Source of the DNA: Geodermatophilus telluris
Lineage (GTDB): Bacteria > Actinomycetota > Actinomycetes > Mycobacteriales > Geodermatophilaceae
Assembly (NCBI RefSeq): GCF_900102745.1
Contig: NZ_FMZF01000008.1
Span: 1-64,000 of the forward strand
DNA length: 64,000 nucleotides
Direction of reading: 5' to 3'
Part shown: piece after piece, positions 8,794 through 40,343 of the stretch
Layout of the letters: each line of letters begins with the position of its first letter
Position numbering within the stretch: position 1 is the first letter of the stretch
The notes under the pieces: generated by a model
What the model was told of the DNA's origin: nothing
The model's database searches: none
The model's input: only the letters and a program-made list of their open reading frames with translations
Program-made: the position numbers and the translations under genes

Positions 8794-9708
8794 GTGCGCG
8801 TGGTCCTGACGCTGGGCGCCGACCAGCAGACGGTGGCCGCCCAGGCGCGCGCCGCCGAGGAGGCGGGCTACGACGGGATCGCGACCGGCGAGCACCTGTT
8901 CTTCCACAGCCCGCACCCGAACGCCTTCGTCGCGCTCGCCGCGGCCGCCGGGGCGACCAGCCGGATCCGGCTGCTGAGCTCGCTCACCGTGCTGCCGCTG
9001 TACCCGGCCGCGCTCGCCGCCAAGCTGGCCACCACGCTCGACCAGGTCTCCGGCGGCCGCTTCGACATGGGCGTGGGCGTCGGTGGCGAGTACCCGCCGG
9101 AGTTCGTCGCGGCCGGTGTCGACGTCGCCGAGCGCGGGCCGCGCACCGACGAGGCGCTGGAGCTGCTGCGCCGGCTGTGGGGCGGCGGCGCCGTGGACCA
9201 CGCCGGCCGCTACGCCCGCGTCGAGGGCCTCGAGCTCTCCCCCGGTCCGGTGCAGCCCGGCGGCCCGCCGCTGTGGCTCGGGGGCCGCAGGGCGCCGGCG
9301 ATCCGGCGGGCGGGCCGCTTCGCCGACGTCTGGATGCCCTACATGTACACACCCGAGCAGCTGGCCCGCAGCCTCGGCGAGGTCCGCGACGCCGCCGAGC
9401 AGGCCGGCCGGGACCCGTCGGACGTCCGGGGCGCCGTCTTCTGCTGGGGCGGGGTGGACGACGACGCGGCGCGGGCGCGGCAGGAGGTCGTCGACTGGGT
9501 GAGCGCGGTGTACCAGCAGGACTTCGCCCCGCTCGCCGACCGCTACCTGCTGCACGGCGACCCCGACCGGGTGGCCGCCCGCGCCCGCGAGTTCGCCGAC
9601 GCGGGCGCCGACACCCTGGTGTTCTCCCCCGTCGGCGCCGGTGCCCGCCGGCAGGAGGGGGTCGACCTGTTCACCCGGGCCGTGCTCCCCCGCCTCGCCG
9701 GCGGCTGA
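8794..9708 (+). CDS. LLM-class (F420/FMN-dependent) oxidoreductase
   Basis: 304 residues from a GTG with GGAGGGG upstream. The luciferase-like TIM barrel is recognisable from VVLTLGADQQ, AEEAGYDGIATGEH, SGGRFDMGVGVGGEY (about 86-100) and WLGGRRAPAIRRAGRFAD. The GVG/GIG-type F420 signature suggests F420, but FMN cannot be excluded. It follows the box operon by 40 bp in the same direction, so it may be co-transcribed; its substrate is unknown. Confidence 0.85.
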   Translation: MRVVLTLGADQQTVAAQARAAEEAGYDGIATGEHLFFHSPHPNAFVALAAAAGATSRIRLLSSLTVLPLYPAALAAKLATTLDQVSGGRFDMGVGVGGEYPPEFVAAGVDVAERGPRTDEALELLRRLWGGGAVDHAGRYARVEGLELSPGPVQPGGPPLWLGGRRAPAIRRAGRFADVWMPYMYTPEQLARSLGEVRDAAEQAGRDPSDVRGAVFCWGGVDDDAARARQEVVDWVSAVYQQDFAPLADRYLLHGDPDRVAARAREFADAGADTLVFSPVGAGARRQEGVDLFTRAVLPRLAGG

Positions 9709-24124: not shown

Positions 24125-26125
24125 TCAGGCGGCCCGCGGCACGGACACGGCGACCGTCGCGGCACCCGCGCAGACCGGGACCGCGGAGGCGGCGAGGCGC
24201 CACAGCTCGCCCCGGCCGAGGACGGCGTCACCCCACGTGTCGAAGGCCCGGGCACCGGCGACGAGCAGCTCCTTGGTGGCCGCGATCCGCCGGTCGACCC
24301 CGTCCAGCCGCTGCCGCGGCGCGCCCGGCCCCGGCGGCGGACCTGGGACGGCCCGGATCCTCCGCGGCACCGCCTGCTGCTCCCGCAGCACGTGCTCGGC
24401 CAGCGGCGCGAGGACCTCGACGGCGAAGCGGGGCAGGTACCCGTCGCCGAAGCGGGCCGCGGTGTCGGCGGCCCGGTCGGCCTGCAGGGCGGTGGGCCGG
24501 TCGCCGCCGGCCCGGCACAGCTCGGTGCCCCGCCCGAACGAGCGGTCCAGCCGGAAGGCGTTCTGCAGCTGCACGAGACCGGCCAGCGCCGCTCCCCACT
24601 CCTCGTGCAGGAGGCGGGCCCGGGTCAGCGCCGGCCGGGTCAGCGCCCCGGTGTCGGTGGCCGCGAGCAGCCGGCGCACCGCCGGGCGGTCGGGGTGCGC
24701 GCGGCCGAAGGCCGCCGTGGCGTCGAGGCCGGCGTGCGCCCGCAGCGCCGCCGTCCCGCCGGGGTGGCGCCGCAGGAACCCGGTGACGTCGTGCACCCGG
24801 CCGTCGACGGCGACCCACCAGCCGTGCGCGTCGTCGTTGTGCTCCGCGACGTCGGCCACCGAGAGCCGCCGCCCGCGCGCCCGGTGCCCGCCGCCGGCGG
24901 CGGGCCGGCGGGCGTCCGGCGGGACCGGCCGCTCCGTGCGCGAGGCGGTGAGGGCCGCGTCGACGGTGTGCCAGGTGTGCTCGCCGGGGGTCCCGGCGAA
25001 CCCGCCGATCGTGACGCCCCGGCCGACCAGGAAGGCGACGGCGAGGTAGCCCGACACCTTCCGCCGGTGCCGGCCGAGGAACCCCTCGGGTCCCGCGTAG
25101 GCCTCCCGCGCCGCGTCGAGGGCGGCCACCAGGCCCGGCCGGGCGCGGGCGGCGACGTAGGCGGGCACCGGCACCTCGTCGACGGCGTCGAGGAACCGGC
25201 GCCAGTGCGGCGGGGCGCTGCGGCGGTGCAGCAGGATCTCGCGGCCGAGCTGGCTGGCGTGCCCGCGGCGGCCCAGGAGCGCGTCGAGCAGGCCGAACAC
25301 GGGGCTCGCGGTGCCGCTCGGGCCGAGGACGCCGGCCCGGAACGGCACGGCCAGCGGCGCGACCGTCTTGGCCCACACGACCGGGTCGACGGCGGTGCGG
25401 GCGCCCGGGCGCGGGTCGATCAGCGGCAGCGACCGGCGGGTGGCCGCCTCCAGGGCGGCGGTGACCGTGGCGAGCGCGGCGGCGAGGGCCTCGGCGTCGT
25501 CGTCGAGCACGGCCTGCTGCGCGGCGACGGCGGCGGTGACCACGGGTGCGCAGCGCGCCAGGATCTCGACCTGGGTCAGGTAGAAGACCCGCTCCTCCTC
25601 GTTGCCGGCCACCGGCACCAGCAGCCGCAGGTCGTCCGACAGCAGCGGGAGCGCGTCCCGCCCGCCTGCCGACCGCCAGTTGTGCACGATGAGGTCGGGG
25701 TAGGTGAGCACCGGTTCCGGGGACCGCCCGAGCCGGCGGCGCACCTGCGCCCACGGGACGGCGACGCCCGCGGGCAGGTCCGCGGGGCCGGTCGCGCGGC
25801 CGTGCACGCAGGCGTGGCCCAGCAGCCCGAGCACCGTCGCCGCGCGCTGCAGGGCCGCGTCGGGCAGCGCGTCCGGACCGGCCGGCAGCACCGGCAGCCC
25901 GTCGAGCGCCTCGCGCACGGCGACGTCGCGGAACAGCGCCGGCAGCGCGGCCGCCGCCTCGTCCCAGGCGGCGTGGCTGGCGGGCAGCCGCGGCAGCGGG
26001 GGGCGGGTCGGCAGGAACCCGCGGTGCGCCGACAGCGGCCCGAGGTGCTCGTGGCCCGGCCGGTCGGTGGTCGCCTGCGCGGCGGCGAGCGCCCGGGCCG
26101 CGGGCGCGGTGTGGGTCGGGCGCAC
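24125..26125 (-). CDS. Indoleamine 2,3-dioxygenase-like protein fused to a cytochrome b5 domain
   Basis: 666 residues from a GTG with GAGGAG upstream. Residues 1-400 follow the IDO fold from end to end: VPWAQVRRRLGRSPEPVLTY and HNW near 140, SPVFGLLDALLGRRGHASQL, PPHWRRFL, and the proximal heme histidine in FLGRHRRKVSGYLAVAF (His near 353). Residues about 415-500 are a cytochrome b5 domain: WWVAVDGRVHDVTGFLRRHP with HPGG (His near 454) and a second axial His in FGRAHP (near 478). A helical C-terminal part of about 165 residues is unassigned. Trp (or another indole) to N-formylkynurenine is the family reaction. The fused b5 probably keeps the dioxygenase heme ferrous, as b5 does for mammalian IDO1. 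Confidence 0.88.
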   Translation of the reverse strand: MRPTHTAPAARALAAAQATTDRPGHEHLGPLSAHRGFLPTRPPLPRLPASHAAWDEAAAALPALFRDVAVREALDGLPVLPAGPDALPDAALQRAATVLGLLGHACVHGRATGPADLPAGVAVPWAQVRRRLGRSPEPVLTYPDLIVHNWRSAGGRDALPLLSDDLRLLVPVAGNEEERVFYLTQVEILARCAPVVTAAVAAQQAVLDDDAEALAAALATVTAALEAATRRSLPLIDPRPGARTAVDPVVWAKTVAPLAVPFRAGVLGPSGTASPVFGLLDALLGRRGHASQLGREILLHRRSAPPHWRRFLDAVDEVPVPAYVAARARPGLVAALDAAREAYAGPEGFLGRHRRKVSGYLAVAFLVGRGVTIGGFAGTPGEHTWHTVDAALTASRTERPVPPDARRPAAGGGHRARGRRLSVADVAEHNDDAHGWWVAVDGRVHDVTGFLRRHPGGTAALRAHAGLDATAAFGRAHPDRPAVRRLLAATDTGALTRPALTRARLLHEEWGAALAGLVQLQNAFRLDRSFGRGTELCRAGGDRPTALQADRAADTAARFGDGYLPRFAVEVLAPLAEHVLREQQAVPRRIRAVPGPPPGPGAPRQRLDGVDRRIAATKELLVAGARAFDTWGDAVLGRGELWRLAASAVPVCAGAATVAVSVPRAA

Positions 26126-26232: not shown

Positions 26233-26261
26233 GGCGGTCGGGGGGCGGTCAGGAGGCGGTC
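26233..26261. repeat. Three GGCGGTC heptamers at 11-bp period
   Basis: GGCGGTC occurs at 26233-26239, 26244-26250 and 26255-26261, each 11 bp apart, over the subtilase stop codon and upstream of the IDO-b5 gene. The period equals that of the GGTGACG boxes, but the heptamer differs and no -10 sits at the usual distance. Confidence 0.5.
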
Positions 26262-27444
26262 AGGGCGCCTGGACGAGGCCCAGGCCGCGGTCGGCGGGGT
26301 CGACGCCGTCGGCCAGGCCGGCGGTCGTCGCGGTGGCCAGGACCTTGGCGGTGGCCGCCCGGGCCGACAGCGGGACGTTCGAGGCGGCCAGCTCCTCCCA
26401 CCACAGCGCCGTCACCCCGGCCACGTGCGGCGTCGCCATGCTCGTCCCGCTCAGGGTGGCCAGCCCGCCGCCGACCTTGGCCGACAGCACCTTGACGCCC
26501 GGCCCGCTGACCTGGGGGAAGGTGTTCGAGAACGGCGCCACCTGCAGCCCGCCGGGGCTCTCGCCGAGGGCGCCCACCGACACCACGCCGTCGGCGGCCG
26601 CCGGGATGGACACGGCGATCTCGTAGTCGGGGTCGACGGTGCGCCGGCTCTCGTTGCCCGCGGCCGCGACCAGCACGCAGCCGCCGCCGAACGGCTCGCG
26701 GCCCCGGGCCACCGCCATGAGCGCGTCGAACATGCGCAGGTTGGCGCGGTAGGCCTCCAGCGCGACGGAGGTGGCGAGGTCCGCCGGCCAGCCCTGGCCG
26801 GTGAGGTCCTCGACCAGGCCGGGGAAGTCGAAGCCCAGCGACATGGACAGCACCTGGGCGTGGTTGTCCAGCGCCCACTGGATGCCGCGGAAGATCATGT
26901 CCGAGTCGCCGCTGCCGTCGTCGCCGAGCACCTTGCCGATCAGGGCCTGCTCGACGCCGGGGGCGACGCCGATGCGGGTGCCGCCGACGTCCCGGCCGAA
27001 GACCGTGCCCGCGCAGTGCGTGCCGTGCCCCTGCTTGTCGCCGTTGCCGGACCCGGAGAAGTCCACCTGCGTGAGCGTCACGCCGGTGAACGCCGGGTGC
27101 GAGGCGTCGATGCCCGTGTCGAGGACGGCCACGACCACCCCCGCGCCGCTGCGCGCCGAGCGGTCCGCGCCGACGGCGGTCACGCCCCAGGCGGTCCCGC
27201 CCGCCTCGCCGTCGTGGTCCTCGGCCTGGTCGACCGGGTGGACGAGCGTGGTGGGCATGACCGGTGCGATGGCCCGCACCGACGGGTCGCGGCTGATCGA
27301 CCGGACGTCGGCCTTGTCCAGCCGCTCGGTGTCGACCCGCAGCCCCACCGCGCCGAGGTCCGGGGCGTCCAGCGACGCCGCTCCCCCGAAGGGCTCGCCC
27401 GTGCTCGCGTCGGTCAGGTCCCGCAGGACGGTGTAGGTGCGCAT
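26260..27444 (-). CDS. Subtilisin-like S8 serine protease without signal peptide
   Basis: 394 residues from the ATG at 27444, which has GGGGGAG 6 nt upstream; an in-frame start at 27546 is rejected because it would lie inside the phased-repeat promoter. The triad is complete: Asp in AVLDTGIDASH (near 109), His in GHGTHCAG (near 139), Ser in GTSMATPH (near 334), and the oxyanion Asn in AAAGNES. A short N-terminal region of about 90 residues (VGLRVDTERLDKADVRSI) resembles an I9-like prodomain. No export signal is seen. It is divergent from the TIR/TerY-P operon and shares its regulatory region. Confidence 0.9.
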   Translation of the reverse strand: MRTYTVLRDLTDASTGEPFGGAASLDAPDLGAVGLRVDTERLDKADVRSISRDPSVRAIAPVMPTTLVHPVDQAEDHDGEAGGTAWGVTAVGADRSARSGAGVVVAVLDTGIDASHPAFTGVTLTQVDFSGSGNGDKQGHGTHCAGTVFGRDVGGTRIGVAPGVEQALIGKVLGDDGSGDSDMIFRGIQWALDNHAQVLSMSLGFDFPGLVEDLTGQGWPADLATSVALEAYRANLRMFDALMAVARGREPFGGGCVLVAAAGNESRRTVDPDYEIAVSIPAAADGVVSVGALGESPGGLQVAPFSNTFPQVSGPGVKVLSAKVGGGLATLSGTSMATPHVAGVTALWWEELAASNVPLSARAATAKVLATATTAGLADGVDPADRGLGLVQAP

Positions 27445-27525
27445 GCTGCTCCCCCTCGAGGAGTTCGGCCGCCGGGTGGCTGGTCCGCCGCCGGCGGGTG
27501 CAGGGCCGGGCGGCGGTGTGCGCCC

Positions 27526-27569
27526 AGGGTCGGCGGCGCGCATCACCGCGCCGTCACCTGCGCGTCACG
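27526..27569 (-). promoter_or_regulatory. SARP-type phased-repeat promoter for the second subtilase
   Basis: On the minus strand CGTGACG (27563-27569), GGTGACG (27552-27558) and GGTGATG (27541-27547) repeat every 11 bp. Nine nucleotides further is GACCCT (27526-27531) as a weak -10. The predicted leader is about 75 nt. Confidence 0.65.
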
Positions 27570-27592
27570 GCGTCCCGGTGCCGCCGGACGGC

Positions 27593-27647
27593 GGTGACGA
27601 CGCGGTGACGCCGTCGTGACGCCGTGGTGATGGACGGCGAGTGCCAT
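27593..27647 (+). promoter_or_regulatory. SARP-type phased-repeat promoter for the TIR/TerY-P operon
   Basis: Four heptamers at exact 11-bp period: GGTGACG (27593), GGTGACG (27604), CGTGACG (27615), GGTGATG (27626). Nine nucleotides after the last is TGCCAT (27642-27647) as the -10. The predicted leader to the TIR gene is about 80 nt. This is the longest repeat array in the window. Confidence 0.72.
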
Positions 27648-27733
27648 GGCGACCGACCGACCGACCGGCCGCGCCGCCGGGAGGGGTGAGCAGACACCCG
27701 CCGGCCCGACCCGGGGAGGGAGACCGCGCCCCG

Positions 27734-29314
27734 ATGACGATCTTCCTGAGCTACGCGCGGGACGACGAGGACCTCGTGAAGACGATGGCCCGGGTGTTCG
27801 AGGCCGCCCGGCGGGAGGTGTGGTTCGACCACGACCTCCGGGGCGGTGACGTCTGGTGGCCGACGATCCTGGACCACATCCGCTCGTGCAGCGTCTTCGT
27901 GTTCGCGCTGTCGGACCGATCGCTGGAGTCGCGGGCGTGCCTGTCGGAGCTGGACTACGCGGAGCGGCTGGAGCGCCCGGTCCTCCCGGTGCGCGTCGGC
28001 CCGGTCGTCAAGCAGCAGGGCAACCCGCTCGCCCAGCGGCACTTCGTGCCGTTCCGCGCGGACGACGCCGTGGCCGCCATCGAGGTGCTCGCCGCCGCCG
28101 AGAGCTCCGCCGCGCGCTGCCCGCCGCTGCCCGAGCCGCTCCCCCCGGAGCCGCCCATCCCCGGCGCCTACGTCCGGCAGATCAGCCAGCAGGTGGAGAG
28201 CACCGAGCTGACCCCCAAGGCCCAGCTGGACGTGATCGCGGAGCTGCGCCGGACGATCGCGGAGGAGACCGACCGGGCGGTGCGCCAGGAGGTCGTGGCG
28301 ATCCTGCACACGATCATGGGCAAGCCCTGGCGGACCAACGCGGCGGGCCTGGAGATCCGGGCCACGCTCGAGGCCCTCCGCCTGCTGGAGGAGGAGATCG
28401 CGCGGGACACGGGCACCGACCAGGCGGCGCCCGGTGCCGGTCCGCCGGGAGCGTCCGCCGAGGCGCCCCCGCCCGACCACGGGGCTGCGGAGGCTGCGGG
28501 GACACGGCCGGACCCCGGGCCTCCGCCCGGTCCGGGTCCCGGGGCGGGGCCGCCCCCCGCGTCCGGGTGGACCGGGCCGGCCGCCGGGGAGCCCGACGCC
28601 GAGGGGCTCTTCCTGGCCCGCGTGGCCGAGCTCCACGCCCACCGGCGGGGACCCGGGACCGGCGACACCGCCGCGCCCGACCCGGCCGGGACCGCGGAGG
28701 ACGTCTTCACCCGCCGGACCGAGGAGGTGTTCGACCAGCTGCGCTCGGGGACCGCCGCCCGGGCGGCGCGGGGACCGGCACCGGACGGCGACGCGGACGG
28801 CCCGCCCCCCACCTTCCCCGGGGTGTCGCACACCCCGCAGCCGCCCCCGCCGGCGGCGGACCCCTGGCCGCCCCCGGGCGCGCCCGGAGGACGGACCGGG
28901 CCCGGGGAGCACGACGCACCCGCCGAGCCCGGAGGTCCCGCGTGGTCCCCCACCGGCACCGCGGCGGGACCGGCGCGCGCGTCGACGACCGCGGCCCCCG
29001 GCCCCGCCGCCCCGCGACCCCCGACCCGCCGGGCCCTGGGGGTCACCGGGCTGCTGCTGTCCGTCGGCTTCGGCGTGCTCGCCGCCCTGCTCGGCGCGAC
29101 CTACCTCGTCGTGCCGTTCGCCGTCTCCGCCGTGACCGCGGGACTCGCCCTCCGCTCCTCGGCGCGGGTCGTCCGCCGCTCCGCCGCCGGCGACCTCGAC
29201 GGCGCCCGCAGCGCCTCGCACACCGCGGTCGTCCTCGCCGCGGTCGCCCTGACCCTCGTCGCGGCCGTGGTGGGGGTCCTCGTGCTCGCCGCCGTCGACT
29301 ACGCGAGCGGGTGA
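27734..29314 (+). CDS. TIR domain protein with C-terminal membrane helices
   Basis: 526 residues from an ATG. The N-terminal TIR domain (about 1-110) starts IFLSYARDDEDLVK and keeps the candidate catalytic glutamate in ACLSELDYAERL (E72), so NAD hydrolase activity is possible. A helical region (about 150-225) and a long Pro/Gly/Ala-rich linker lead to two membrane helices at the C-terminus (about 437-520), with a short soluble segment between. It heads a six-gene operon with vWA, PP2C and kinase proteins. TIR proteins in such settings act as effectors or adaptors; which applies here is not shown. Confidence 0.85.
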   Translation: MTIFLSYARDDEDLVKTMARVFEAARREVWFDHDLRGGDVWWPTILDHIRSCSVFVFALSDRSLESRACLSELDYAERLERPVLPVRVGPVVKQQGNPLAQRHFVPFRADDAVAAIEVLAAAESSAARCPPLPEPLPPEPPIPGAYVRQISQQVESTELTPKAQLDVIAELRRTIAEETDRAVRQEVVAILHTIMGKPWRTNAAGLEIRATLEALRLLEEEIARDTGTDQAAPGAGPPGASAEAPPPDHGAAEAAGTRPDPGPPPGPGPGAGPPPASGWTGPAAGEPDAEGLFLARVAELHAHRRGPGTGDTAAPDPAGTAEDVFTRRTEEVFDQLRSGTAARAARGPAPDGDADGPPPTFPGVSHTPQPPPPAADPWPPPGAPGGRTGPGEHDAPAEPGGPAWSPTGTAAGPARASTTAAPGPAAPRPPTRRALGVTGLLLSVGFGVLAALLGATYLVVPFAVSAVTAGLALRSSARVVRRSAAGDLDGARSASHTAVVLAAVALTLVAAVVGVLVLAAVDYASG

Positions 29315-29320
29315 CGCGCG

Positions 29321-29815
29321 GTGCCCGCCCGGAAGCGGCTCGCCGCCGCGTCGATCGCCGCCTTCGGGCTGGCCTTCGCCGTGGTGCTCGCGCTCGGCCA
29401 GGCCCTCCCGTCGGGGTCCACGGCCGACCCGGCCCCGTCCACGGGCGCCGCCCCGACGCCCACGACGACGCCCACCGAGCCGCCCACCAGCGAGCCGGCA
29501 CCCGGGACGACGTCCTCCGAGACGCCCAGCGAGACGAGGCCCTCCGAGACGACGTCCCCGAGCGGGGGGGAGTCGTCGCGCTCGTACGACCTGTCGTCGC
29601 TGCTCGTGCCGGGTCCTGCCGGGGAGGACGACGAGGACCTCCGCGACCTGCACCCGGTGGTGTGGCGGGACGGGGATGAGCAGGTGTACCTGTGCATCCA
29701 GGTGCCCGAGGGCTTCGAGATCGGCAGCGACGGCTGGGAGGACGCGGTCGGGCCGATCCACTGCCGGACCGCCACCCGCGGGCAGTCCCTCGAGCTCGAG
29801 CTGGTGCGGTCGTGA
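29321..29815 (+). CDS. Signal-anchored Thr/Pro-rich protein with small C-terminal domain
   Basis: 164 residues from a GTG. A signal/anchor helix (about 6-29) is followed by a Thr/Pro/Ser-rich linker (about 30-90) and a domain of about 65 residues with two cysteines (YLCIQVPEGF and IHCRTATRG) that is probably outside the membrane. I recognise no family. It overlaps the next gene by 4 nt. An extracytosolic sensor for the operon is plausible but unproven. Confidence 0.75.
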   Translation: MPARKRLAAASIAAFGLAFAVVLALGQALPSGSTADPAPSTGAAPTPTTTPTEPPTSEPAPGTTSSETPSETRPSETTSPSGGESSRSYDLSSLLVPGPAGEDDEDLRDLHPVVWRDGDEQVYLCIQVPEGFEIGSDGWEDAVGPIHCRTATRGQSLELELVRS

Positions 29816-30480
29816 GCGCCTCGGGCGGCCGGACGGTCGCGGACCTGCTCCTGCTGCTGCGGGTCGCGGCCGCGAGCCTGGCCGGCGGGCTGTCCGCCGT
29901 CGTCGTGCTGTGGGTGGCCGAGGACGGCCTCCCGCAGCCAGGGGTCCTCCTCGCCCTCGTCCTGCTGGTGACGGTCCTCAGCGTGCTGGCCTCCGCGGCG
30001 CTGGTGTCCGACCGCCGGTCCCCCGGGCCCCCCGCCGGCAGCCCGGTCCCGCCCGTGCCGCACCCGGCCGCGCCCCGCCCGGCGCCGCCCGCGCTCCCCC
30101 CGGCACCCGCGCTCCCGTCCGGCCGCCGGTACGACCCGGCGGGGGGCGGACCCGGACGGGCCGCTCCCGCCCCGGCCCTGCCGGTGTTCACGCCGCCGAA
30201 ACCGGTGCCGGTGCGGGCCGCCTCGCCGCCGACCTGGGAGACCCACCCCGTCCCCGGCGCCGCGCGCGACGCCGGCGCGGTCCGCCGGCTCGTCCAGTGC
30301 CCCCGCTGCGGCGACTTCGGCGTCGAGGCGCGCCGGCGGGCCGCGGTGTTCGCCTTCACCTGTCGCCGGTGCGCGCACACCTGGCAGTGGGGCCGCGGGT
30401 CGCCGTGGCCGGCGACCGTCGTCCGTCCGCCGGGGGCCGAGCGCGGCCCCGGTCCGGTCCCGCCCAGGAGGTCCCCGTGA
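29812..30480 (+). CDS. Two-TM protein with C-terminal zinc ribbon (TerY-C-like)
   Basis: 222 residues from a GTG overlapping the previous stop. Two hydrophobic helices (about 8-35 and 42-65), a Pro-rich linker, then a CxxC...CxxC zinc ribbon: VQCPRCGDFGVEARRR and FTCRRCAHTW (about 160-190). Zinc ribbons accompany TerY-type vWA proteins in TerY-P systems, where they are usually fused to the vWA domain; here the ribbon is on a separate membrane protein directly before the vWA gene. It overlaps that gene by 4 nt. Confidence 0.75.
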   Translation: MSASGGRTVADLLLLLRVAAASLAGGLSAVVVLWVAEDGLPQPGVLLALVLLVTVLSVLASAALVSDRRSPGPPAGSPVPPVPHPAAPRPAPPALPPAPALPSGRRYDPAGGGPGRAAPAPALPVFTPPKPVPVRAASPPTWETHPVPGAARDAGAVRRLVQCPRCGDFGVEARRRAAVFAFTCRRCAHTWQWGRGSPWPATVVRPPGAERGPGPVPPRRSP

Positions 30481-31349
30481 ACCCCTCGTACAGCCAGGCA
30501 CCGGTGTTCTCCCGCCAGACACCCGGCTGCATCGTCCTGCTGGTCGACCGCTCGGACTCCATGGGCATGCCGTGGGCGGGGTCGGAGGGCCTCACCCTGG
30601 CCCAGGGCGCGGCCCGGGCGATCAACAAGCTCCTCTTCCAGCTGTGCGTCAAGTCCACGAAGGAGGCGGGCAAGCCCCTGCGCCCGTACTTCTACGTCGG
30701 CGTCTACGGCTACGGGCTCTGCCCGCGGACGGGCCTGGAGGGCGTGGAGTCCGCGCTGCCGGGCGCGCTCGCCCAGCGGGCCATCGTGCCGCTGCCCGAG
30801 CTGGCCGACAGCCCGATCGACGTCCGGTCGGACCCCTCCGCGGACGCGCTGCCGCGCCGCTCCCGCATGCCGGTCTGGTACGAGCCGGCGCACGGCTTCC
30901 GCACCCCGATGTGCGCCGCGATGGCCCTCGCCGGCGCGCACGTCGCCGAGTGGGCGCGGGCGTTCCCGCGGTCCCTGCCGCCGATCGTCGCCAACATCAC
31001 CGACGGGCTGGTCACCGACAGCCCCTACCAGGGCGTCGACCTCGCGGGCTGGGCGGCGCGGCTGCGGTCGGTCCGGACCGACCTGGGCCACACGGTGCTG
31101 CTCAACGCCTTCCTCTCGGCCGACCCCGCGCCGATCACGGCCTTCCCGGCGCACGTGCGGGACCTGCCGGAGCCGGCACCGGAGCTGTTCGCGATCAGCA
31201 GCGAGCTGCCCGAGCAGATGGTCCGCAACGCCCGCGCGGAGCACATCGACCTCGAGCCGGGCGCCCGCGGCTTCGTGTTCAACGCCGACCTCGCGATGCT
31301 GGTCAGGTTCCTCGAGATCGGCACCCGGTACGAGGTGCGCGATGGCTGA
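30477..31349 (+). CDS. vWA domain protein (TerY-like)
   Basis: 290 residues from a GTG with AGGAGG upstream. The MIDAS is complete: DRSDSM (DxSxS, D24), a threonine in FRTPMCAA and the aspartate in NITDG. Such vWA proteins bind a divalent metal and assemble partner proteins; TerY is the scaffold of the TerY-P triad with a PP2C phosphatase and a protein kinase, which are the next two genes. It overlaps the PP2C gene by 8 nt. Confidence 0.88.
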   Translation: MNPSYSQAPVFSRQTPGCIVLLVDRSDSMGMPWAGSEGLTLAQGAARAINKLLFQLCVKSTKEAGKPLRPYFYVGVYGYGLCPRTGLEGVESALPGALAQRAIVPLPELADSPIDVRSDPSADALPRRSRMPVWYEPAHGFRTPMCAAMALAGAHVAEWARAFPRSLPPIVANITDGLVTDSPYQGVDLAGWAARLRSVRTDLGHTVLLNAFLSADPAPITAFPAHVRDLPEPAPELFAISSELPEQMVRNARAEHIDLEPGARGFVFNADLAMLVRFLEIGTRYEVRDG

Positions 31350-32151
31350 CCGCGTGACGACGGCGGTCGAGCTCGTCGCCTTCGCCGTCGCCAAGGCGGG
31401 CTCGGCGGACGCGGAGTGGGAGGACGGCACCGGCTACGACCCCGGCGACCCGCGCACCGGCCGGCCCGCCCGGCTGGTGGTGGCCGACGGCGCCACCGAG
31501 GCCTACGACGCGGCCCACTGGGTCGGGCAGCTCGTCGACGCCTTCCTCGCGCCCGACGGCCGCGCGCCCGCGCTGGACCCGGCCGGGCTCGACGCGTGGT
31601 TCGGCCGGCAGCAGCAGGTGTGGGCCGGTGCGCCCCGCGCGTTCGCCACGGTCTTCGAGGAGCACAAGTTCCTCGAGTCCGGCTCGTTCGCCACCTTCCT
31701 CGGGTGCGAGGTGCACGGCCTCGGCGGTCCCGAGCCGCGCTGGGTGGCCGCCGCGCTCGGTGACACGGTGCTCTTCCACGTGCGCGACGGCCGGGTCCTC
31801 GCCCAGGTCCCCGACCTCGCCGCCGAGGACTTCGGCGTGACGCCGGACGGGGTGTCCACCCAGCCCGGGCAGCGCGCCCGGATGCGCGGCGCGCTGCGCA
31901 CGCGGGACGGCGCCCTGCGGGTCGGTGACTGCCTGCTGCTCGCCACCGACGCCCTCGCCGAGTGGGTGGTGCGGGCCGTGCGGGACGGGGACGCGCGGTG
32001 GCGGGAGCTCACCTCGGTCGACCACCCGCAGGTCTTCCGGGACCTGGTCGACCGGCTGCGCGCGGCCGGCGACGTGCGCAACGACGACGTGACGCTGCTG
32101 CGGGCGCACGTCACCCCCACCGAGGCCGGAGTGCTGGTGATCTGCCGATGA
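31342..32151 (+). CDS. PP2C-type protein phosphatase (TerY-P triad)
   Basis: 269 residues from an ATG. PP2C metal-binding aspartates are in LVVADGATEAYD (near 49), CLLLATDALAEW (near 197) and RNDDVTLLRAH (near 250). The SFATFLGCEV segment corresponds to the GSTA-type strand. Expected role: reversing phosphorylation by the kinase encoded next. It overlaps both neighbours, which indicates translational coupling. Confidence 0.88.
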   Translation: MADRVTTAVELVAFAVAKAGSADAEWEDGTGYDPGDPRTGRPARLVVADGATEAYDAAHWVGQLVDAFLAPDGRAPALDPAGLDAWFGRQQQVWAGAPRAFATVFEEHKFLESGSFATFLGCEVHGLGGPEPRWVAAALGDTVLFHVRDGRVLAQVPDLAAEDFGVTPDGVSTQPGQRARMRGALRTRDGALRVGDCLLLATDALAEWVVRAVRDGDARWRELTSVDHPQVFRDLVDRLRAAGDVRNDDVTLLRAHVTPTEAGVLVICR

Positions 32152-33491
32152 GCACCCACCCCACGATCGAGGACTACGTCGCCGCGGTGCAGGACCCGGA
32201 GAACGCCTTCCGGACGCCCTCGCTGCGCCGGGCGGTGTTCGCCCTGCACCCGGTGTGGGGCATCCCCTCACCGGCCTCCGGCAACGCGGCCGTGGTCTTC
32301 AAGGCGACGGTCGACGGCCGGGACCAGGCGCTGCGCTTCTTCATCCGGGAGGACGCCTCGGACGGCCGCCGCTACGGGGCGCTGGCCCGCCACTTCGCCG
32401 AGCACGGGCTGCTCGACTGCGTGGCCGGCGTGCACTGGGTCGACGACGCGGTGGAGATCGGGGGGCGGACCTGGCCCATGGTGCAGATGGAGTGGATCGA
32501 GGGCCGCACGCTGGAGGTGCACGTCGGCGAGCTCGCCCGCAGCGGCGACGTCGGGGCGCTGCACGCCCTGGCCGGCCGGTGGCGCGAGCAGCTCCGCCGC
32601 CTGCAGCAGGCCGACTTCGCGCACGGCGACCTGCAGCACGGCAACGTCCTCGTCCAGTCCTCGTCGGCGCTGCGCCTGGTGGACTTCGACGGGTCCTGGA
32701 TCACGCCGTTCGCCGGCTGGCCCGCCCCGGCCGAGACCGGTCAGCCGAACTACCAGCGCACCGGCCGCACCTGGGGCCGCTGGATGGACACCTTCCCCGG
32801 CCTGGTCGTCTACACGAGCCTCCTCGCGCTGTCGCGCCGTCCCGACGCGTGGCGCGACCTGCACACCGGCGAGAACCTCCTGCTGTCCTCCGACGACTTC
32901 GCGCGCGTCGACGCGACGCGGGCCTGGGCCCTGCTGCGCGACATCGAGGACCCGGAGGTGGCCCACGTCGTGGGGCGGCTGCGGGCGTGCTGCGCCCCGG
33001 GCTGGGACGCCGACGGTCCGCTGGAGGCGCTGCTCGACCGGGAGCGGGTCCACGGGCGGCACGCGCAGCCCCCGCCCCCGCCCCCGCCGGTCTGGCACCT
33101 GCCGCAGCAGGGGGCGCCGGCGGAGTGGTGGACCTCGCCCGCCCCCGCCCCTCCGGGCGGCGGGCACGGGGCGGCGGGGTGGTCCGGGGCGGCGCACGAG
33201 GAGGACCGGCCGCTGTTCGGCGGCGTCTCGGCGCCGCCGGGACCACCCCGGGGACAGCCGCGGCCCCCGTTCGTCCCGCCGCCGGTCCCGCCGCCCCCAC
33301 CGCCCGGCCGCGTCCCCCCGGGAGCGCGCAGCGGGACCCCGGTCGCGGCGGGGGTCGCCGCGCTCACCGCCCTCGTGCTCTTCGTCCTGGTCGCGCCCAC
33401 CGACCCCGGCTCGGCCGTCGGCGTGGCACTGGTCGCCGGGTTCGTCGCGTTCCTGGTGACCCTGGCGGTCTCCCGGCACCGGGGACGGTGA
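32148..33491 (+). CDS. Protein kinase-like protein with C-terminal TM helices (TerY-P triad)
   Basis: 447 residues from an ATG overlapping the PP2C stop (ATGA). Kinase fold: catalytic loop AHGDLQHGNVLV (D and N present, about 159-170) and metal-binding LVDFDGSW. The usual strand-3 lysine appears as Arg in QALRFFIRED, which seems typical of TerY-P kinases but leaves activity open. A Pro-rich linker of about 90 residues and two membrane helices close the protein. With vWA and PP2C it makes a complete TerY-P-like triad. Confidence 0.85.
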   Translation: MSTHPTIEDYVAAVQDPENAFRTPSLRRAVFALHPVWGIPSPASGNAAVVFKATVDGRDQALRFFIREDASDGRRYGALARHFAEHGLLDCVAGVHWVDDAVEIGGRTWPMVQMEWIEGRTLEVHVGELARSGDVGALHALAGRWREQLRRLQQADFAHGDLQHGNVLVQSSSALRLVDFDGSWITPFAGWPAPAETGQPNYQRTGRTWGRWMDTFPGLVVYTSLLALSRRPDAWRDLHTGENLLLSSDDFARVDATRAWALLRDIEDPEVAHVVGRLRACCAPGWDADGPLEALLDRERVHGRHAQPPPPPPPVWHLPQQGAPAEWWTSPAPAPPGGGHGAAGWSGAAHEEDRPLFGGVSAPPGPPRGQPRPPFVPPPVPPPPPPGRVPPGARSGTPVAAGVAALTALVLFVLVAPTDPGSAVGVALVAGFVAFLVTLAVSRHRGR

Positions 33492-33501
33492 CGGGAGCGC
33501 C

Positions 33502-34422
33502 TCAGGCCGGCCCGTCGCCGAACAGGTCCGCCCAGCCCTCGTTCTGCGCCGCGAGCACCCGCTCCACCTCGGTGACGAGGTGCGCCTCCTGCTCCGGCGT
33601 CGCGGCGGCCAGGTCGAAACCGGCGACGAGGGCCTCGAGCCGGTCGGCGGTGCCCGCGGAGGCCGCGGCGACGCCCTGGTACCGGGTGGCGGCCAGGTGC
33701 GCGCCGACGGCGGTGGCGACCGTCGTCGCGGCCGCGGTCCAGGCCGACAGCCCCCAGGAGGGGACGGTGCCGGCGAGCGCGGCGAGGACGGCGCCGGTCC
33801 CCGTGGCGGCGAGCTGCGCGGTGCGCAGGCGGCACGCCCGGCGGGCGTGCGCGGCGCTCCGCTCCCGGTGCCAGGCGGCCTGCCCCCGGGCGCGCAGGTC
33901 GACGTACTCCCGCACGGTGCGCAGCGCCGGCAGCGGGCGCCCGTCGGCCGGCGCCTGCTGGCGGTCGACCAGGGAGCCGGCCGCCCGGGCCCGCACCTCG
34001 TCCAGGCGGGCCTGCAGCACCCGGGAGCGGTCGGGTCCCGCGTAGGGCGCCACGCGCAGGAGGTAGCGGTGCACCTCCGCCTTCAGCGCCTCCGAGGCGG
34101 CCCGGGCCCGGGTCCACCGGGCGGTCTGCCCCGTGGTGAGCGCGTGGGCCTGGAGGAGCCCCGCGAGCGCCAGGGCGACCGCGGCGACGGCGGCCGCCCC
34201 GGTGGCGGTGGCGGAGTCCGGCCCGGTCTGCGCCGCGAGGGCCCCGGCGAGGGCCCCGAGCACGAGGAGCACCAGGTTGCCGAGCCGGGCCCGCTCCACC
34301 CGCCTCCTGCCCGCGTCGGCCGCCGCGGACCACTGCCGCTGGTGGGACCAGACCACGTCGAGGACGCCGTCCGGGGACGGGGCCGGCCCGGTCGGGGACT
34401 GCTCCGGGGTCCCGGTGTGCAC
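33502..34422 (-). CDS. SLATT/DUF4231-like membrane protein
   Basis: 306 residues from a GTG with GAGGAGG, which overlaps the stop of the upstream gene. Two pairs of membrane helices (about 47-95 and 202-250), each followed by long amphipathic helices (ARWTRARAASEALKAEVHRYL and YQGVAAASAGTADRLEALV), match the SLATT/DUF4231 layout. SLATT proteins are predicted pore-forming effectors in nucleotide-signalling conflict systems. Its operon partner has a SLOG-like domain, in agreement with that. It faces the kinase gene tail to tail, 10 bp apart. Confidence 0.78.
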   Translation of the reverse strand: MHTGTPEQSPTGPAPSPDGVLDVVWSHQRQWSAAADAGRRRVERARLGNLVLLVLGALAGALAAQTGPDSATATGAAAVAAVALALAGLLQAHALTTGQTARWTRARAASEALKAEVHRYLLRVAPYAGPDRSRVLQARLDEVRARAAGSLVDRQQAPADGRPLPALRTVREYVDLRARGQAAWHRERSAAHARRACRLRTAQLAATGTGAVLAALAGTVPSWGLSAWTAAATTVATAVGAHLAATRYQGVAAASAGTADRLEALVAGFDLAAATPEQEAHLVTEVERVLAAQNEGWADLFGDGPA

Positions 34423-34432
34423 CGCCGCCTCC

Positions 34433-36628
34433 TCAGCGGTCCGGGGCGCCGCTGTGGACGGCGGCGCCCGCCGGCGGCCGCGGCGCCGTGGCCGCCGTGG
34501 GGAGGGTGCCGACGGCGCCCCCGAGCGGGCCGACCCGGTCGGCCTCGGCGGGGACGGCGCCGGGGCCCTCCGGCGCCCGCGTGGGGTCGCCGACCTCGCC
34601 CGACGTCACCGCCGCGGCTCCCGGCTCCTCCGCCGCCGCCTCCGGCAAGCCGAACAGCCCGACGGTGTCCACGGTGACGACCTCCGCGCCGCGCTGCAGG
34701 CCGGTGGCCACCATGTCCGAGACGCCACCGCGGCCCTCGCCCACCAGGCCGTTCCACAGCGCGAGCACGGTGACCCGCCCGGTCGTCGTCGCCGCCCACG
34801 CGTAGTGCAGGACCCAGCGGTTGCTGCGCTGCCAGGTGTCGTAGTCGGGGCGGGTGGCGAGCCACCCGGGCATGGTGTGGCTCCGGGCCAGCGTGCGGAC
34901 CTCCGCGGCCCGGCGGAGCGCCGTGTGGTACCGCTCGGCCCAGCGGGACGCCTGCCGGGACAGCGCCGTGGCCCGGTAGACGAGCTCGGGCACCGGGAGC
35001 AGCACGTGCGTGGTCACGCCGAGCTCGTGGCAGGCCTCGTGGAAGAGCAGGTCGCCCCCGTCGGAGGCGCCGGCGATCCCCAGGAGCGCCACCCCGGGCT
35101 CCGCCTCCACTGCGGCCTTGATCCCGCTGACCCGCTCCCGGATCGCCCGCGCCGCGACCTCCTCGGCGTCCGGCGGGAACCGCGGCTGCGCCCGGCCGGG
35201 CGCGTCGATCATGTGGCCGGAGAAGACGAGGGGGTGGACCCGCGCCGCCTCCTGCACGCCGGCCTCGGGCAGCACGGCCAGGGTGGCCTCGGCGTTGTCG
35301 ACGAGGATGCCGAGGTCGCGGTAGATCTCCGCCTGCTCCTTGATCGACCGGATGGTGGCCCGGCTCAGGTCCGGGCTCAGCGCCGCCTCGTAGGCGGCAC
35401 CGACCCGCTCGGGGTCGTCGTTGGTGAGGAACCGGAGGTCCGCGCGGCTGATGTCCAGCCAGGGGTCCGTGGTCCCCTCGCGGTGGCACCGGGCCCGGGC
35501 GGTGTCCAGCGACGCGCGGACGGTGGACGTCAGGGACGCGACGTGCGACCGGAGCCGGCGCAGGTCGGTCTCGGCGTCCTCGTCGGTGTCGAACCGGGTC
35601 TGCCAGGTGGCGCCGTCGCGCAGGGCGAGCTCGAGCGCGATCCGCCCCATCGCGAGGGCGTTGACCCCGGAGTACCAGTGGTTGAGGTCCTCCTCGAAGC
35701 CGCGGCCGTAGGACCGCACGGCGGTCTCCAGCTCCCGCGACCGCAGGGCCAGCCGCACGCGCGCGTCCTCGTCCTCGGCGCTGCGCCACTGCTTGGCCCA
35801 GCGCCGCTTGCTGTTGCTGGCACGCAGCGCGTAGAGCTCGGCCCGGTCCCGGCTCCCGAGCGCCGCCCCGCCCAGGGCGCGCTCGATCGCCTGGTCGGAG
35901 GCGACGAGGTCGCCGAGCCTGCGGTAGGTGTCCGACAGCGCCCGGTTGACCTCGAAGTCGTCGGGGTGGGCGGCCCGGATCCGCTCCCACGCGTCCTTGG
36001 CCCCGGAGTCGTCGCCGACGTCGGCGCTGGCCTGGGCGACGGCGCGCAGGGCCGCCTCCTCGAAGCGCAGCCCGGTGACCTCCTCGGCGATCAGCCGGAG
36101 GGCGCCGGCCCACTTCTGGTCGCGGGCCTGCTCGATGTCCTCCGCCAGGTCCCGGGGGACCTCGAGCAGGGCGCTGCGGTCGCCGGTGGCCAGGCCGGGC
36201 ACGTAGGTGAACACCGGGCTGTCGACGCGTTCGTTGGCCAGCGTCTCCCGGAGCGCCTGCACCAGCCGCGGCGCCGCCTCCGCCGGGGCGGTCGGGTCGT
36301 AGGAGAGGTAGCGCTCCCCCCGGAGGTCGAAGGGCACCTCGTCGACCCGGGCGCGGACGAGCACCGTGGCGCGGTCGCGCACCGCGTGCCGGACACCGAG
36401 CTCGTAGAAGACGTTGGCGTTGTGGATCGAGACGTCCGCGACGACGAGGTCGGCCACCAGGAGCTCGTGGATGACGTCGTCGCGGACGTTGCCGGCCTCC
36501 ACGATCAGGCCGGTGGTGCCGCCCTCGAGCCCCACGGCGTCCAGCGCCGGCCCGATGAGGTCCTCGTGGACCCGGTCGAAGTCCACCCCGGCCTTGACGC
36601 CGAAGCCCCGGATGACGAAGGCGCGCAC
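34433..36628 (-). CDS. TRAFs-binding/TPR (DUF4071-type) protein with C-terminal SLOG-like domain
   Basis: 731 residues from a GTG with GGAGGGGGAG upstream. N-terminal Rossmann-like part (about 1-115; GLIVEAGNVRDDVIHELLVA and NVFYELGVRHAV) resembles nucleotide-deoxyribosyltransferase-like sensors. A long TPR-like helical region (about 190-460) corresponds to the MAP3K TRAFs-binding family. The C-terminal domain (about 470-650; VFSGHMIDAPGR and LLGIAGASDGGDLLFHEAC) is homologous to the separate SLOG-like protein encoded at 36790-37401. It forms an operon with the SLATT gene, driven by a two-box promoter at 36693-36725. Confidence 0.8.
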   Translation of the reverse strand: MRAFVIRGFGVKAGVDFDRVHEDLIGPALDAVGLEGGTTGLIVEAGNVRDDVIHELLVADLVVADVSIHNANVFYELGVRHAVRDRATVLVRARVDEVPFDLRGERYLSYDPTAPAEAAPRLVQALRETLANERVDSPVFTYVPGLATGDRSALLEVPRDLAEDIEQARDQKWAGALRLIAEEVTGLRFEEAALRAVAQASADVGDDSGAKDAWERIRAAHPDDFEVNRALSDTYRRLGDLVASDQAIERALGGAALGSRDRAELYALRASNSKRRWAKQWRSAEDEDARVRLALRSRELETAVRSYGRGFEEDLNHWYSGVNALAMGRIALELALRDGATWQTRFDTDEDAETDLRRLRSHVASLTSTVRASLDTARARCHREGTTDPWLDISRADLRFLTNDDPERVGAAYEAALSPDLSRATIRSIKEQAEIYRDLGILVDNAEATLAVLPEAGVQEAARVHPLVFSGHMIDAPGRAQPRFPPDAEEVAARAIRERVSGIKAAVEAEPGVALLGIAGASDGGDLLFHEACHELGVTTHVLLPVPELVYRATALSRQASRWAERYHTALRRAAEVRTLARSHTMPGWLATRPDYDTWQRSNRWVLHYAWAATTTGRVTVLALWNGLVGEGRGGVSDMVATGLQRGAEVVTVDTVGLFGLPEAAAEEPGAAAVTSGEVGDPTRAPEGPGAVPAEADRVGPLGGAVGTLPTAATAPRPPAGAAVHSGAPDR

Positions 36629-36692
36629 GGCTCCCCCTCCCGCTCGGCAGGGGTCCCGGCGCTGCCCGGGGCCCTCGCACCGCTGGTCGCCG

Positions 36693-36725
36693 ATGCCAGC
36701 ACGCGGCCGTCACCGCGGCGTCACC
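36693..36725 (-). promoter_or_regulatory. SARP-type phased-repeat promoter for the TRAFs/SLATT operon
   Basis: Two exact GGTGACG heptamers on the minus strand (36719-36725 and 36708-36714), 11 bp apart. Nine nucleotides after the second comes TGGCAT (36693-36698) as the -10. The predicted leader is about 58 nt. Confidence 0.7.
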
Positions 36726-36789
36726 GCGGGCCGGGGGCACGCCGGCCGGTGCCCTTCCGCTCCGGCGGCCGGTGTCCCACGCTCGTGCC

Positions 36790-37401
36790 ATGAGCGCCCC
36801 CCGTGCCGTGCTGGTGACCGGGCACATGGTGGACCTGCCCGACCGCGCCTCGCCGCGGTTCCCGCAGGACCAGGTGCCCCGGGTCACGGCGGAGGTGCGC
36901 GACGTCCTGCGGGCCTGGCAGGTCGGCCCGGGGAGCACGGTGGTGTGCGGCGGCGCCCGGGGCGCCGACCTGATCGTGGCCGAGGAGGCCCGGGCGCGCG
37001 GGGCGCACGTCGTGCTGTGCCTGGCGCTGCCGCGCGAGGACTTCGTCCGCCGGTCGGTCGACATCCCGGGCACCGACTGGGCCGAGCGGTTCGACCGCGT
37101 CGCGGCGGCCGCCGAGGTCCGCGTGCTGGACGGGGTCGACGGCGGCGCGCCCGACGACGTGTTCGCCCGCGCCAACGCCTGGATGGTCGAGGTGGCCCGC
37201 CGCCTCGACCCGCACCCGCACGCGGTCGTCGTCTGGGACGGCCGGCGCGGCGACGGCCCCGGCGGGACCGCCGACATGGTGGCGCTCCTCGGCCTGGGCG
37301 CTCCCGACCCGAGGGTGCGGGTGATCGACCCGACCCCCGGCCACCGGGAGGCACCCGTCACTCGAGGAGCAGGTCGACCTCCGACCCCCGGACGGCGCTG
37401 A
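36790..37401 (+). CDS. SLOG-like (DprA/LOG-type Rossmann) protein
   Basis: 203 residues from an ATG at 36790. VTGHMVDLPDR and CGGARGADLIVAEEARARGA (about 55-75) form a SLOG-like nucleotide-binding site, and LPREDFVRRSVD and GTADMVALL are also conserved with the C-terminal domain of the neighbouring 731-residue protein. SLOG domains sense or produce nucleotide-derived signals in conflict systems. The ribosome site is weak. The 3' end overlaps the convergent TIR gene by 44 bp, and the last 25 residues (PTPGHREAP...) are probably unstructured. Confidence 0.72.
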   Translation: MSAPRAVLVTGHMVDLPDRASPRFPQDQVPRVTAEVRDVLRAWQVGPGSTVVCGGARGADLIVAEEARARGAHVVLCLALPREDFVRRSVDIPGTDWAERFDRVAAAAEVRVLDGVDGGAPDDVFARANAWMVEVARRLDPHPHAVVVWDGRRGDGPGGTADMVALLGLGAPDPRVRVIDPTPGHREAPVTRGAGRPPTPGRR

Positions 37402-38365
37402 CCGTCACGGTGACGCCGGGGAACGTCAGGCCGGCGGTCTGGCACCACGTCGACGCGCCGACCTCCGCCGACAGGCTCCCGCACTGCACCGCGGTGGGGA
37501 CGAACCCCTGCGCCACCAGCTCGTCGTACACGCGCTGCGCGACGACGTCCCCCGACAGGGTCGACGTCCCGCCCATCTCGACCGCGCCCCAGATCCCGAG
37601 CCCGACGAGCACCACGGTGACCCCGCCGATCCAGGCCAGCACCCGGGTGACGCGGGAGCGCGTGGCCGGTCCGGGCAGCGGCGGCCCGCCCTGCCACCCC
37701 TGCCACGCCGGCCGGTCCCGGGGGGCGCCGGCCAGCGCCTGCCGGGCGCGCTCGGCCGGGCCCTGGAGGCTCTGCGGGTGCTCGGCGAACCGCCGCAGGA
37801 GGTCGGCCGCCGTGGTCCGCTCCTCGGGGTCGGCCGACCGCAGCCCCGTCGTCAGGTCCGTGACGATGCGGTCCTGCAGGTAGGCGTCGGGGACGAGCGC
37901 GGAGACCAGGTCGGAGATCTGGTTCAGGTAGGACAGCGGCGGCGGCGGGGGCGGTGGCAGCGGGCGCGGCAGCGGCCGCGGTGGCGGCAGCTGGGCGAGC
38001 GCGCGGTAGAGCCGTCCGGTCGACGCGGAGTCGCGGGTCCGGTAGTCGAAGAACTGGATCTGGGCGAACTCCGACGGCAGTCCCTGCATGTTCACCGGCG
38101 CCACCTGGACCGGCAGCAGGAGCCGGCCGAGCTCCAGCGCGTACCGCCGCTCCAGCGTGCACGCCCTCGACACCAGCGACGCCGGTGAGGTCACCGCGAG
38201 CAGCAGGTCGCACTGCTGGATGCGCAGCACGATCTCGTCCCACCACCGGGACCCGGAGTGCGCCCCGGCGTCGGTCCACGGGTCGTGGCCGAGCAGCCGC
38301 AGCGTCTCGACGAGCTCCTCCACGACCGCGCGGTCCTCGCGGGCGTAGGAGATGACGATCCTCAC
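37358..38365 (-). CDS. TIR domain-TM protein with DUF4333-like extracytosolic domain
   Basis: 335 residues from a GTG with AGGGGGAA upstream. TIR domain at about 1-110 (IVISYAREDRAVV; candidate catalytic glutamate in ACTLERRYALEL, E72). A Pro-rich segment, a helical region (about 145-200), a single membrane helix (about 238-262) and a C-terminal domain with two cysteines (VQCGSLSAEVGASTWC) that resembles DUF4333. The TIR domain lies inside and the Cys domain outside, so the protein could link an external signal to the TIR domain. It is driven by the box at 38422-38454. Confidence 0.83.
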   Translation of the reverse strand: MRIVISYAREDRAVVEELVETLRLLGHDPWTDAGAHSGSRWWDEIVLRIQQCDLLLAVTSPASLVSRACTLERRYALELGRLLLPVQVAPVNMQGLPSEFAQIQFFDYRTRDSASTGRLYRALAQLPPPRPLPRPLPPPPPPPLSYLNQISDLVSALVPDAYLQDRIVTDLTTGLRSADPEERTTAADLLRRFAEHPQSLQGPAERARQALAGAPRDRPAWQGWQGGPPLPGPATRSRVTRVLAWIGGVTVVLVGLGIWGAVEMGGTSTLSGDVVAQRVYDELVAQGFVPTAVQCGSLSAEVGASTWCQTAGLTFPGVTVTVSAVRGSEVDLLLE

Positions 38366-38421
38366 CGCGTTCCCCCTGGGGCCGTGGTCTGCCGACGGGA
38401 GGGCGGACGTCCCCCCTGGGC

Positions 38422-38454
38422 ATGCTGGGGGGACGCCGTCACCGTCGCGTCACC
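38422..38454 (-). promoter_or_regulatory. SARP-type phased-repeat promoter for the TIR-TM gene
   Basis: Two exact GGTGACG heptamers on the minus strand (38448-38454 and 38437-38443), 11 bp apart, then 9 nt, then CAGCAT (38422-38427) as the -10. The predicted leader is about 50 nt. Confidence 0.7.
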
Positions 38455-38469
38455 GCGGGCGCGGGCCGG

Positions 38470-38482
38470 CCGGGGGTAGCGT
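38470..38482 (+). promoter_or_regulatory. CCGGGGGTAGCGT promoter-like element upstream of the I9-like gene
   Basis: TAGCGT (38477-38482) fits the TANNNT -10 consensus, and the start codon follows about 30 nt later with GGGAGG in between. The same 13-mer occurs at 47965-47977, over the start of the alditol oxidase gene. Confidence 0.4.
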
Positions 38483-38512
38483 CGGACGCCGGCAGGGACC
38501 CGGGAGGACGCG

Positions 38513-38875
38513 GTGGACGACGACGGCGCCGGCGGTCCGGCGGGCAAGCTGACCGCGCGGGTGGCCGAGCGCCTGGCGCAGGCGGGTGCGGGCAGCCCCG
38601 TCGAGGTCGTCGTCGAGCTGCGTCCGGTGGAGGTGCCCGTCACCGGCTCGCGCGCGGAGCGCACCCGCGCCGTCCGGGCCGCGTTCGAGCGGGAGCTGGC
38701 CGGGGTCGCCGAGCGGATCGCCGCCGCCGGGGGCGTGGTGCTGGAGACCGCGTGGGTGGACCAGACGGTGCGCGGCAGCGTCCCGGCCGCCGGGCTGCTC
38801 GCGGTGGCCGAGGACGACGCGGTCACCGCGATCGACCTGCCCCGGCCGCTGCAGCCCGACGCCGGCGCCTCCTGA
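38513..38875 (+). CDS. Stand-alone I9-like protease prodomain/inhibitor
   Basis: 120 residues from a GTG with GGAGG upstream. The sequence VEVVVELRPVEVPV, a helix AFERELAGVAERIAAAGG and the strand pair VLETAWVDQTVRGSVPAAGL ending in DDAVTAIDLPRPL match the alpha/beta prodomain (inhibitor I9 fold) that precedes subtilases. The same closing pattern (AVTALDVPRRL) occurs in the N-terminal region of the convergent subtilase, whose stop is 1 bp away. It may act as a chaperone or inhibitor in trans. No export signal is visible. Confidence 0.7.
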   Translation: MDDDGAGGPAGKLTARVAERLAQAGAGSPVEVVVELRPVEVPVTGSRAERTRAVRAAFERELAGVAERIAAAGGVVLETAWVDQTVRGSVPAAGLLAVAEDDAVTAIDLPRPLQPDAGAS

Positions 38876-38876
38876 G

Positions 38877-40325: not shown

Positions 40326-40343
40326 GGCGTCCTCCTCGCGGGG

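Follow-up and report, generated by a model that had tools for sequence, protein, structure and literature searches.

A predicted IDO-type heme oxygenase domain fused to cytochrome b5 in Geodermatophilus telluris, and its reductase-bearing relatives

A single gene on the minus strand of the 64,000-nucleotide stretch of Geodermatophilus telluris DNA analysed here (the window) encodes a chain in which an indoleamine 2,3-dioxygenase (IDO) domain is followed by cytochrome b5 and then by a helical domain at the C-terminus. The explanation that best accounts for the results as a whole, and that we regard as reasonably probable, is that the protein belongs to the IDO superfamily of heme oxygenases and carries its own one-electron donor, a reductase having probably been lost from the chain. 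It would be reduced via its own cytochrome b5 and would act on an aromatic substrate other than tryptophan.

Gene, domains and predicted structure

The features of the gene, in window coordinates, are as follows.

24125–26125, minus: whole gene, 666 aa, IDO, cytochrome b5 and helical C-terminal domain (CTD); GTG start at 26125, stop at 24125–24127
24926–26101, minus: predicted IDO-fold heme oxygenase domain, residues ~9–400; Pfam PF01231 E 6e-32, Z 38–41 against IDO1/IDO2
25367–25375, minus: family motif W251-A252-K253, aligned to IDO1 F226-F227-S228
25358–25360, minus: Ala256, at the position of IDO1 Arg231 in two sequence alignments
25067–25069, minus: His353, predicted proximal heme ligand, aligned to IDO1 His346; His in 29 of 29 aligned rows
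24872–24925, minus: short linker, residues 401–418, where relatives have an FAD/NADPH reductase of ~410–450 aa
24635–24871, minus: cytochrome b5 domain, residues ~419–497; Pfam PF00173 E 4e-16
24764–24766, minus: His454 in HPGG, predicted first cytochrome b5 heme ligand; His in all aligned rows covering the position
24695–24697, minus: His477, predicted second cytochrome b5 heme ligand; His in all aligned rows covering the position
24128–24634, minus: helical CTD, residues ~498–666, related to the CTD of longer relatives by profile matches via its orthologues; modelled as four long helices

The fusion of IDO to cytochrome b5 in one frame, proposed in an initial annotation, was confirmed by Pfam, with matches to IDO (PF01231) at residues 32–229 (111 bits against a cut-off of 26) and to Cyt-b5 (PF00173) at residues 423–480, and by the IDO fold of the AlphaFold model. 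His353 in HRRKVSGY, His454 in HPGG and the second cytochrome b5 histidine, at 477, are located where that annotation had put them. In a sequence search of the PDB, the protein matched IDO1, IDO2 and cytochrome b5. Pfam and comparison with the reductase-bearing relatives (long forms, described below) show that an FAD/NADPH reductase module is absent from the window protein, and Pfam gave no match to PrnB (PF08933).

The gene is a single open frame with a coding-like GC content by codon position (0.85/0.61/0.97). Orthologues of the same length, 76–88% identical, are present in three other Geodermatophilus genomes; the loci of the named species G. tzadiensis, G. amargosae and G. saharensis correspond to loci from genomes of the genus. 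The dN/dS values of 0.35–0.37 for the whole gene and 0.26–0.32 for the IDO domain (three species pairs) indicate purifying selection. Based on the conserved length and the whole-gene dN/dS, this is therefore neither a chance frame nor an assembly artefact. Among the 26 genomes of the genus that were searched, four have an intact gene and two have remnants; being confined to a minority of genomes and decayed in two species, the gene is dispensable for the genus, though under selection where present. The decayed remnants lie at 9405–10259 of L017 (G002) and near 9599–10306 of L018 (G023). No plasmid relatives of the gene were found.

A structure prediction for the full protein, as the initial annotation had suggested, was made with AlphaFold2 (pLDDT 89.7, pTM 0.90; 45-row alignment). 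Residues 3–405 have the IDO fold, matching IDO1 and IDO2 with Z 38–41 at 2.0–2.7 Å over ~350 residues. The C-terminal part, previously described as helical and unassigned, does have four long helices in the model, but it is not isolated, as this domain is common to the long forms of the wider family. A profile of the long-form CTD matches five other short (reductase-less) forms (E 6e-9 to 5e-6) and the closest orthologue (0.02), and does not match the window row itself, so the homology of the window CTD goes through its orthologues. In the structure searches, the matches listed were IDO and reductase folds.

At 26260–40343 the window holds a run of conflict- or defence-type genes, encoding S8 subtilases (26260–27546 and 38880–40343), a TIR protein with a CD225-like tail (27641–29314), a SLATT-domain protein (33502–34605) and a TPR-S protein (34433–36709). 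A defence role for the IDO gene was considered and rejected, based on the absence of a PADLOC model matching the protein and of any sign in the synteny search that orthologues share these neighbours. Likewise, a functional operon in the window is not supported, since the region syntenic with G. tzadiensis takes in the gene and what lies downstream of it, but not the upstream subtilase. At the IDO–cytochrome b5 loci of G. saharensis (L062, 10980–16257) and G. amargosae (L051, 11037–16311), a subtilase, a CHAT-TPR protein and a sigma factor adjoin the G. saharensis gene (Pfam), and G. amargosae has genes similar to these by sequence and position; this subtilase–CHAT cassette differs from the neighbours in the window.

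Long forms and the reductase module

The arrangement of IDO followed directly by cytochrome b5 is present in the window protein and, in a search for the same domain order, in short forms of other actinobacteria. It is the minority form, however, in a wider four-domain family, most relatives adding a reductase between IDO and cytochrome b5. For example, in G027 (same family), G048 (same order), G198 and G220 (further actinobacteria) the two parts are split by ~410–450 residues within one frame of ~1180–1420 aa, and this insert matches FAD_binding_1 and NAD_binding_1 (Pfam). It is related in sequence to the sulfite reductase flavoprotein (SiR-FP60) and NADPH-P450 reductase (E 3e-26), and in a long-form model (pLDDT 86.4, pTM 0.84) the predicted fold of the insert matches SiR-FP60, P450 reductase and the FAD domain of P450 BM3. 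Within the reductase module, Pfam found just the FAD/NADPH part and no FMN domain.

When GTDB species genomes were scanned, 36 loci were recovered, from Chloroflexota, Myxococcota, Bacteroidota, Pseudomonadota, Armatimonadota, Bdellovibrionota, and Actinomycetota, most of which have the order IDO–reductase–cytochrome b5–CTD in a single chain; long forms span five or more phyla. Conserved positions in the family include PGDR, R-x-YS, G-x-G-x-x-PF, CG, the three heme histidines, and W-K. The equivalents of His353, His454, and His477 are histidine in every aligned family member, and the FAD and NADPH motifs of the long-form reductase module are conserved. Because the scan pattern contained the W-x-K motif, its conservation among the 36 scanned loci is circular; it is also present in the loci found without the motif (G027, G048, G198, and G220).

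In a tree with canonical IDOs as outgroup, the reductase-less forms of four genera, Geodermatophilus, Modestobacter, Streptomyces, and Herbidospora, make up one clade (support 98/99) nested among the long forms, which suggests one reductase loss in Actinomycetota. A topology uniting the long forms in a single clade was not rejected (p-AU 0.166), and the loss was therefore dropped as an established fact. On this phylogeny the window clade has probably lost the reductase, although a single gain may yet account for the pattern. In Herbidospora, a short form and an FHA-headed long form lie ~55 kb apart, and short and long forms are therefore not interchangeable versions of one gene.

The family also varies around this core. 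At one locus, in Saprospiraceae, IDO and cytochrome b5 are encoded by two different frames, and no reductase lies between these. An N-terminal FHA domain is present in several relatives and absent from many long forms, and those of Myxococcota and Oligoflexales carry a gamma-glutamylcyclotransferase-like domain. In L033, L039, L043, and L063, from these two groups, this domain (AIG2) is N-terminal and is followed by a stretch that by eye resembles a cytochrome b5-like domain, with an extra domain at the C-terminal end. Upstream of long forms there is a RidA-like gene at 12 loci and a CBS-domain protein, in some cases with a REC-like part, at 16, both mainly in Chloroflexota and Actinomycetota; a PIG-L/cNMP-binding protein adjoins three loci. 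RidA acts on reactive imines and enamines, and such a neighbour would fit, weakly, an amine substrate. Elsewhere in the G. telluris genome (L069; C7, near 200146–200574), one protein has a receiver domain ahead of a flavoprotein part like thioredoxin reductase, and a cNMP-binding histidine-kinase-like protein is encoded alongside; the receiver is similar to the one in the CBS protein that accompanies long forms.

A broader proposal, offered tentatively, is that these proteins are a widespread bacterial family of self-sufficient IDO-type heme oxygenases, each uniting the oxygenase with cytochrome b5 and an NADPH reductase in a single chain and acting on a non-tryptophan aromatic substrate, of which the Geodermatophilus protein would be a derivative with the reductase lost.

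Substrate, electron supply and alternative explanations

The protein was aligned by MAFFT and hhalign with human IDO1. Trp251 is at the position of Phe226, Lys253 at Ser228 and, in both alignments, Ala256 at Arg231, and the GTGG loop is replaced. In IDO1, Arg231 holds the carboxylate of the substrate, tryptophan (PMC12921851). With Ala256 aligned there, the protein would lack the residue expected of a functional tryptophan dioxygenase (EC 1.13.11.52). The W-x-K motif of the pocket is specific to the family, and a separate TDO and kynureninase are encoded elsewhere in the genome; bacteria are reported to carry IDO or TDO exclusively of each other (PMC4191572). No kynurenine-pathway gene was seen among the neighbours examined, and within the window the surrounding genes point to no particular substrate.

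The short forms of other genera have more informative surroundings. In S. coelicoflavus and S. harbinensis, genes for an HpaB hydroxylase, an FAD monooxygenase, and an AraC regulator accompany it, while a ketosynthase gene and a PrnB homologue are found within ~10 kb. The PrnB homologues (PF08933) are at 16950–18170 of L080 in S. coelicoflavus and 475–1659 of L082 in S. harbinensis. DAHP synthase and chorismate-binding/amidotransferase genes lie within ~20 kb in S. harbinensis, for which some gene assignments are by similarity to S. coelicoflavus genes, and an arylamine N-acetyltransferase is near the S. coelicoflavus short form. Herbidospora has a P450 and a PKS gene, together with an NRPS and an aromatic amino acid lyase. 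In addition, G220 has a canonical IDO alongside its long form. These neighbours, the TDO and kynureninase, the canonical IDO of G220, and the alanine aligned to Arg231 together favour a non-tryptophan aromatic substrate. Tryptophan itself is probably not used, and the likeliest candidates are an aromatic amine or a derivative of an amino acid.

Human IDO1 must be in the ferrous state for its O2 chemistry (PMC4191572), and cytochrome b5 with NADPH-P450 reductase can reduce it (PMC4191572, PMC13142367). The in vivo role of cytochrome b5 for IDO1 is still described as unclear (PMC13142367), and its effect may be allosteric instead of being that of an electron donor (Pearson 2010, as cited in PMC13142367). 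The claim of the initial annotation that a dioxygenase is here joined to its natural type of reductant stands in part: the idea of the cytochrome as donor is strengthened by the relatives with a P450-reductase-type FAD/NADPH module in the same chain, whereas the identity as a tryptophan or indoleamine dioxygenase is not supported, given Ala256, the W-x-K motif, and the TDO and kynureninase of the genome. Electrons would pass from the cytochrome b5 heme (His454/His477) to the heme of the IDO domain (His353), which, made or restored ferrous, would bind O2, after which the bound aromatic substrate would be oxidized. In the long forms the built-in module would feed the cytochrome, giving a route from NADPH through FAD and cytochrome b5 to the IDO heme in one polypeptide. 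As its chain has no reductase module, the window protein requires a separate donor, and the Geodermatophilus short form would have to take its electrons from a separate reductase of another type. No match to an FAD_binding_1 reductase was found in its own genome; a candidate there for a separate reductase of the fused type was rejected, being a weak partial match (3.6e-4) with a stop inside. The window domain is the only Cyt-b5 match in the genome, with no other cytochrome b5 found.

Other explanations were weighed against this one. The IDO fold (Z 38–41), the conserved proximal histidine, and the kynureninase of the genome would suit a true tryptophan (indoleamine) 2,3-dioxygenase with a fused reductant, making N-formylkynurenine; this is unlikely, given the apparent replacement of the Arg231 clamp by Ala and of the GTGG loop, the TDO already present where the two enzymes are reported to be mutually exclusive, and the lack of a kynurenine-pathway gene among the neighbours examined. 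A heme-based sensor is distinctly unlikely. In it, the IDO domain would bind O2, NO, or a small molecule, the redox modules would set its state, and output would be via the FHA domain or the REC/CBS partner, both of which occur in the family as described above; the IDO-derived abalone myoglobin illustrates that the fold can lose catalysis (PMC4191572). The window clade, however, has neither FHA domain nor CBS partner, FHA is missing from many long forms, and several relatives sit among metabolic genes.

Flavohemoglobins combine reductase and heme domains in one chain, as do the long forms, and an NAD(P)H-driven nitric-oxide dioxygenase or O2 reductase with the IDO fold replacing the globin can be envisaged. 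It is improbable, since the short clade keeps the IDO domain without the reductase and the biosynthetic character of its Streptomyces neighbourhoods gives no hint of NO detoxification. It is very improbable that the short form merely survives, functionless and decaying, from the four-domain enzyme. Although the reductase is missing and the gene is absent from most of the genus, with only remnants in two species, the dN/dS of the IDO domain in three species pairs, the retention of all heme ligands, and a supported clade spanning four genera argue against such a relic.

Significance and comparison with known systems

In the open-licence literature searched, no description of the fusion or of the four-domain family was found. 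The protein thus appears to combine known domains, in an order for which no record was found, with an altered active site, and an earlier description may exist. For IDO, the partner that maintains the reduced state in the cell is still described as unclear (PMC13142367). Such fusions would be natural evidence that the cytochrome b5 route to reduced IDO, mostly with a P450-reductase-type module, works, and a single purifiable protein would allow electron transfer to be measured. The family may also point to a new substrate for this branch of the heme-dependent aromatic oxygenases (HDAOs), for which the Streptomyces neighbourhoods provide leads.

Compared with human and bacterial IDO (PF01231), the window protein is alike in fold, in the proximal histidine and in overall sequence match, but in the alignment it does not retain Arg231, Phe226/227, or the GTGG loop, and it has a fused cytochrome b5 and helical domain, to which most relatives add a reductase. 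PrnB, MarE, SfmD, and other HDAOs are likewise His-ligated heme oxygenases of this superfamily and are frequently encoded in natural-product clusters (PMC11791213), and two Streptomyces relatives of the window protein are near a PrnB homologue; no mention of fused redox domains was found for these enzymes in the sources consulted. When mammalian IDO1 is supported in vitro by cytochrome b5 and NADPH-P450 reductase as separate proteins (PMC13142367), the three functional parts are those of the long forms, in which, however, they are fused in one chain, with no FMN domain found by Pfam; the window protein is without the reductase. Like P450 BM3 and the sulfite reductase flavoprotein, the long forms present a parallel of heme oxygenase and P450-reductase-type module in one chain, differing in that the heme domain is IDO-type and that cytochrome b5 would stand in for the FMN domain in carrying single electrons.
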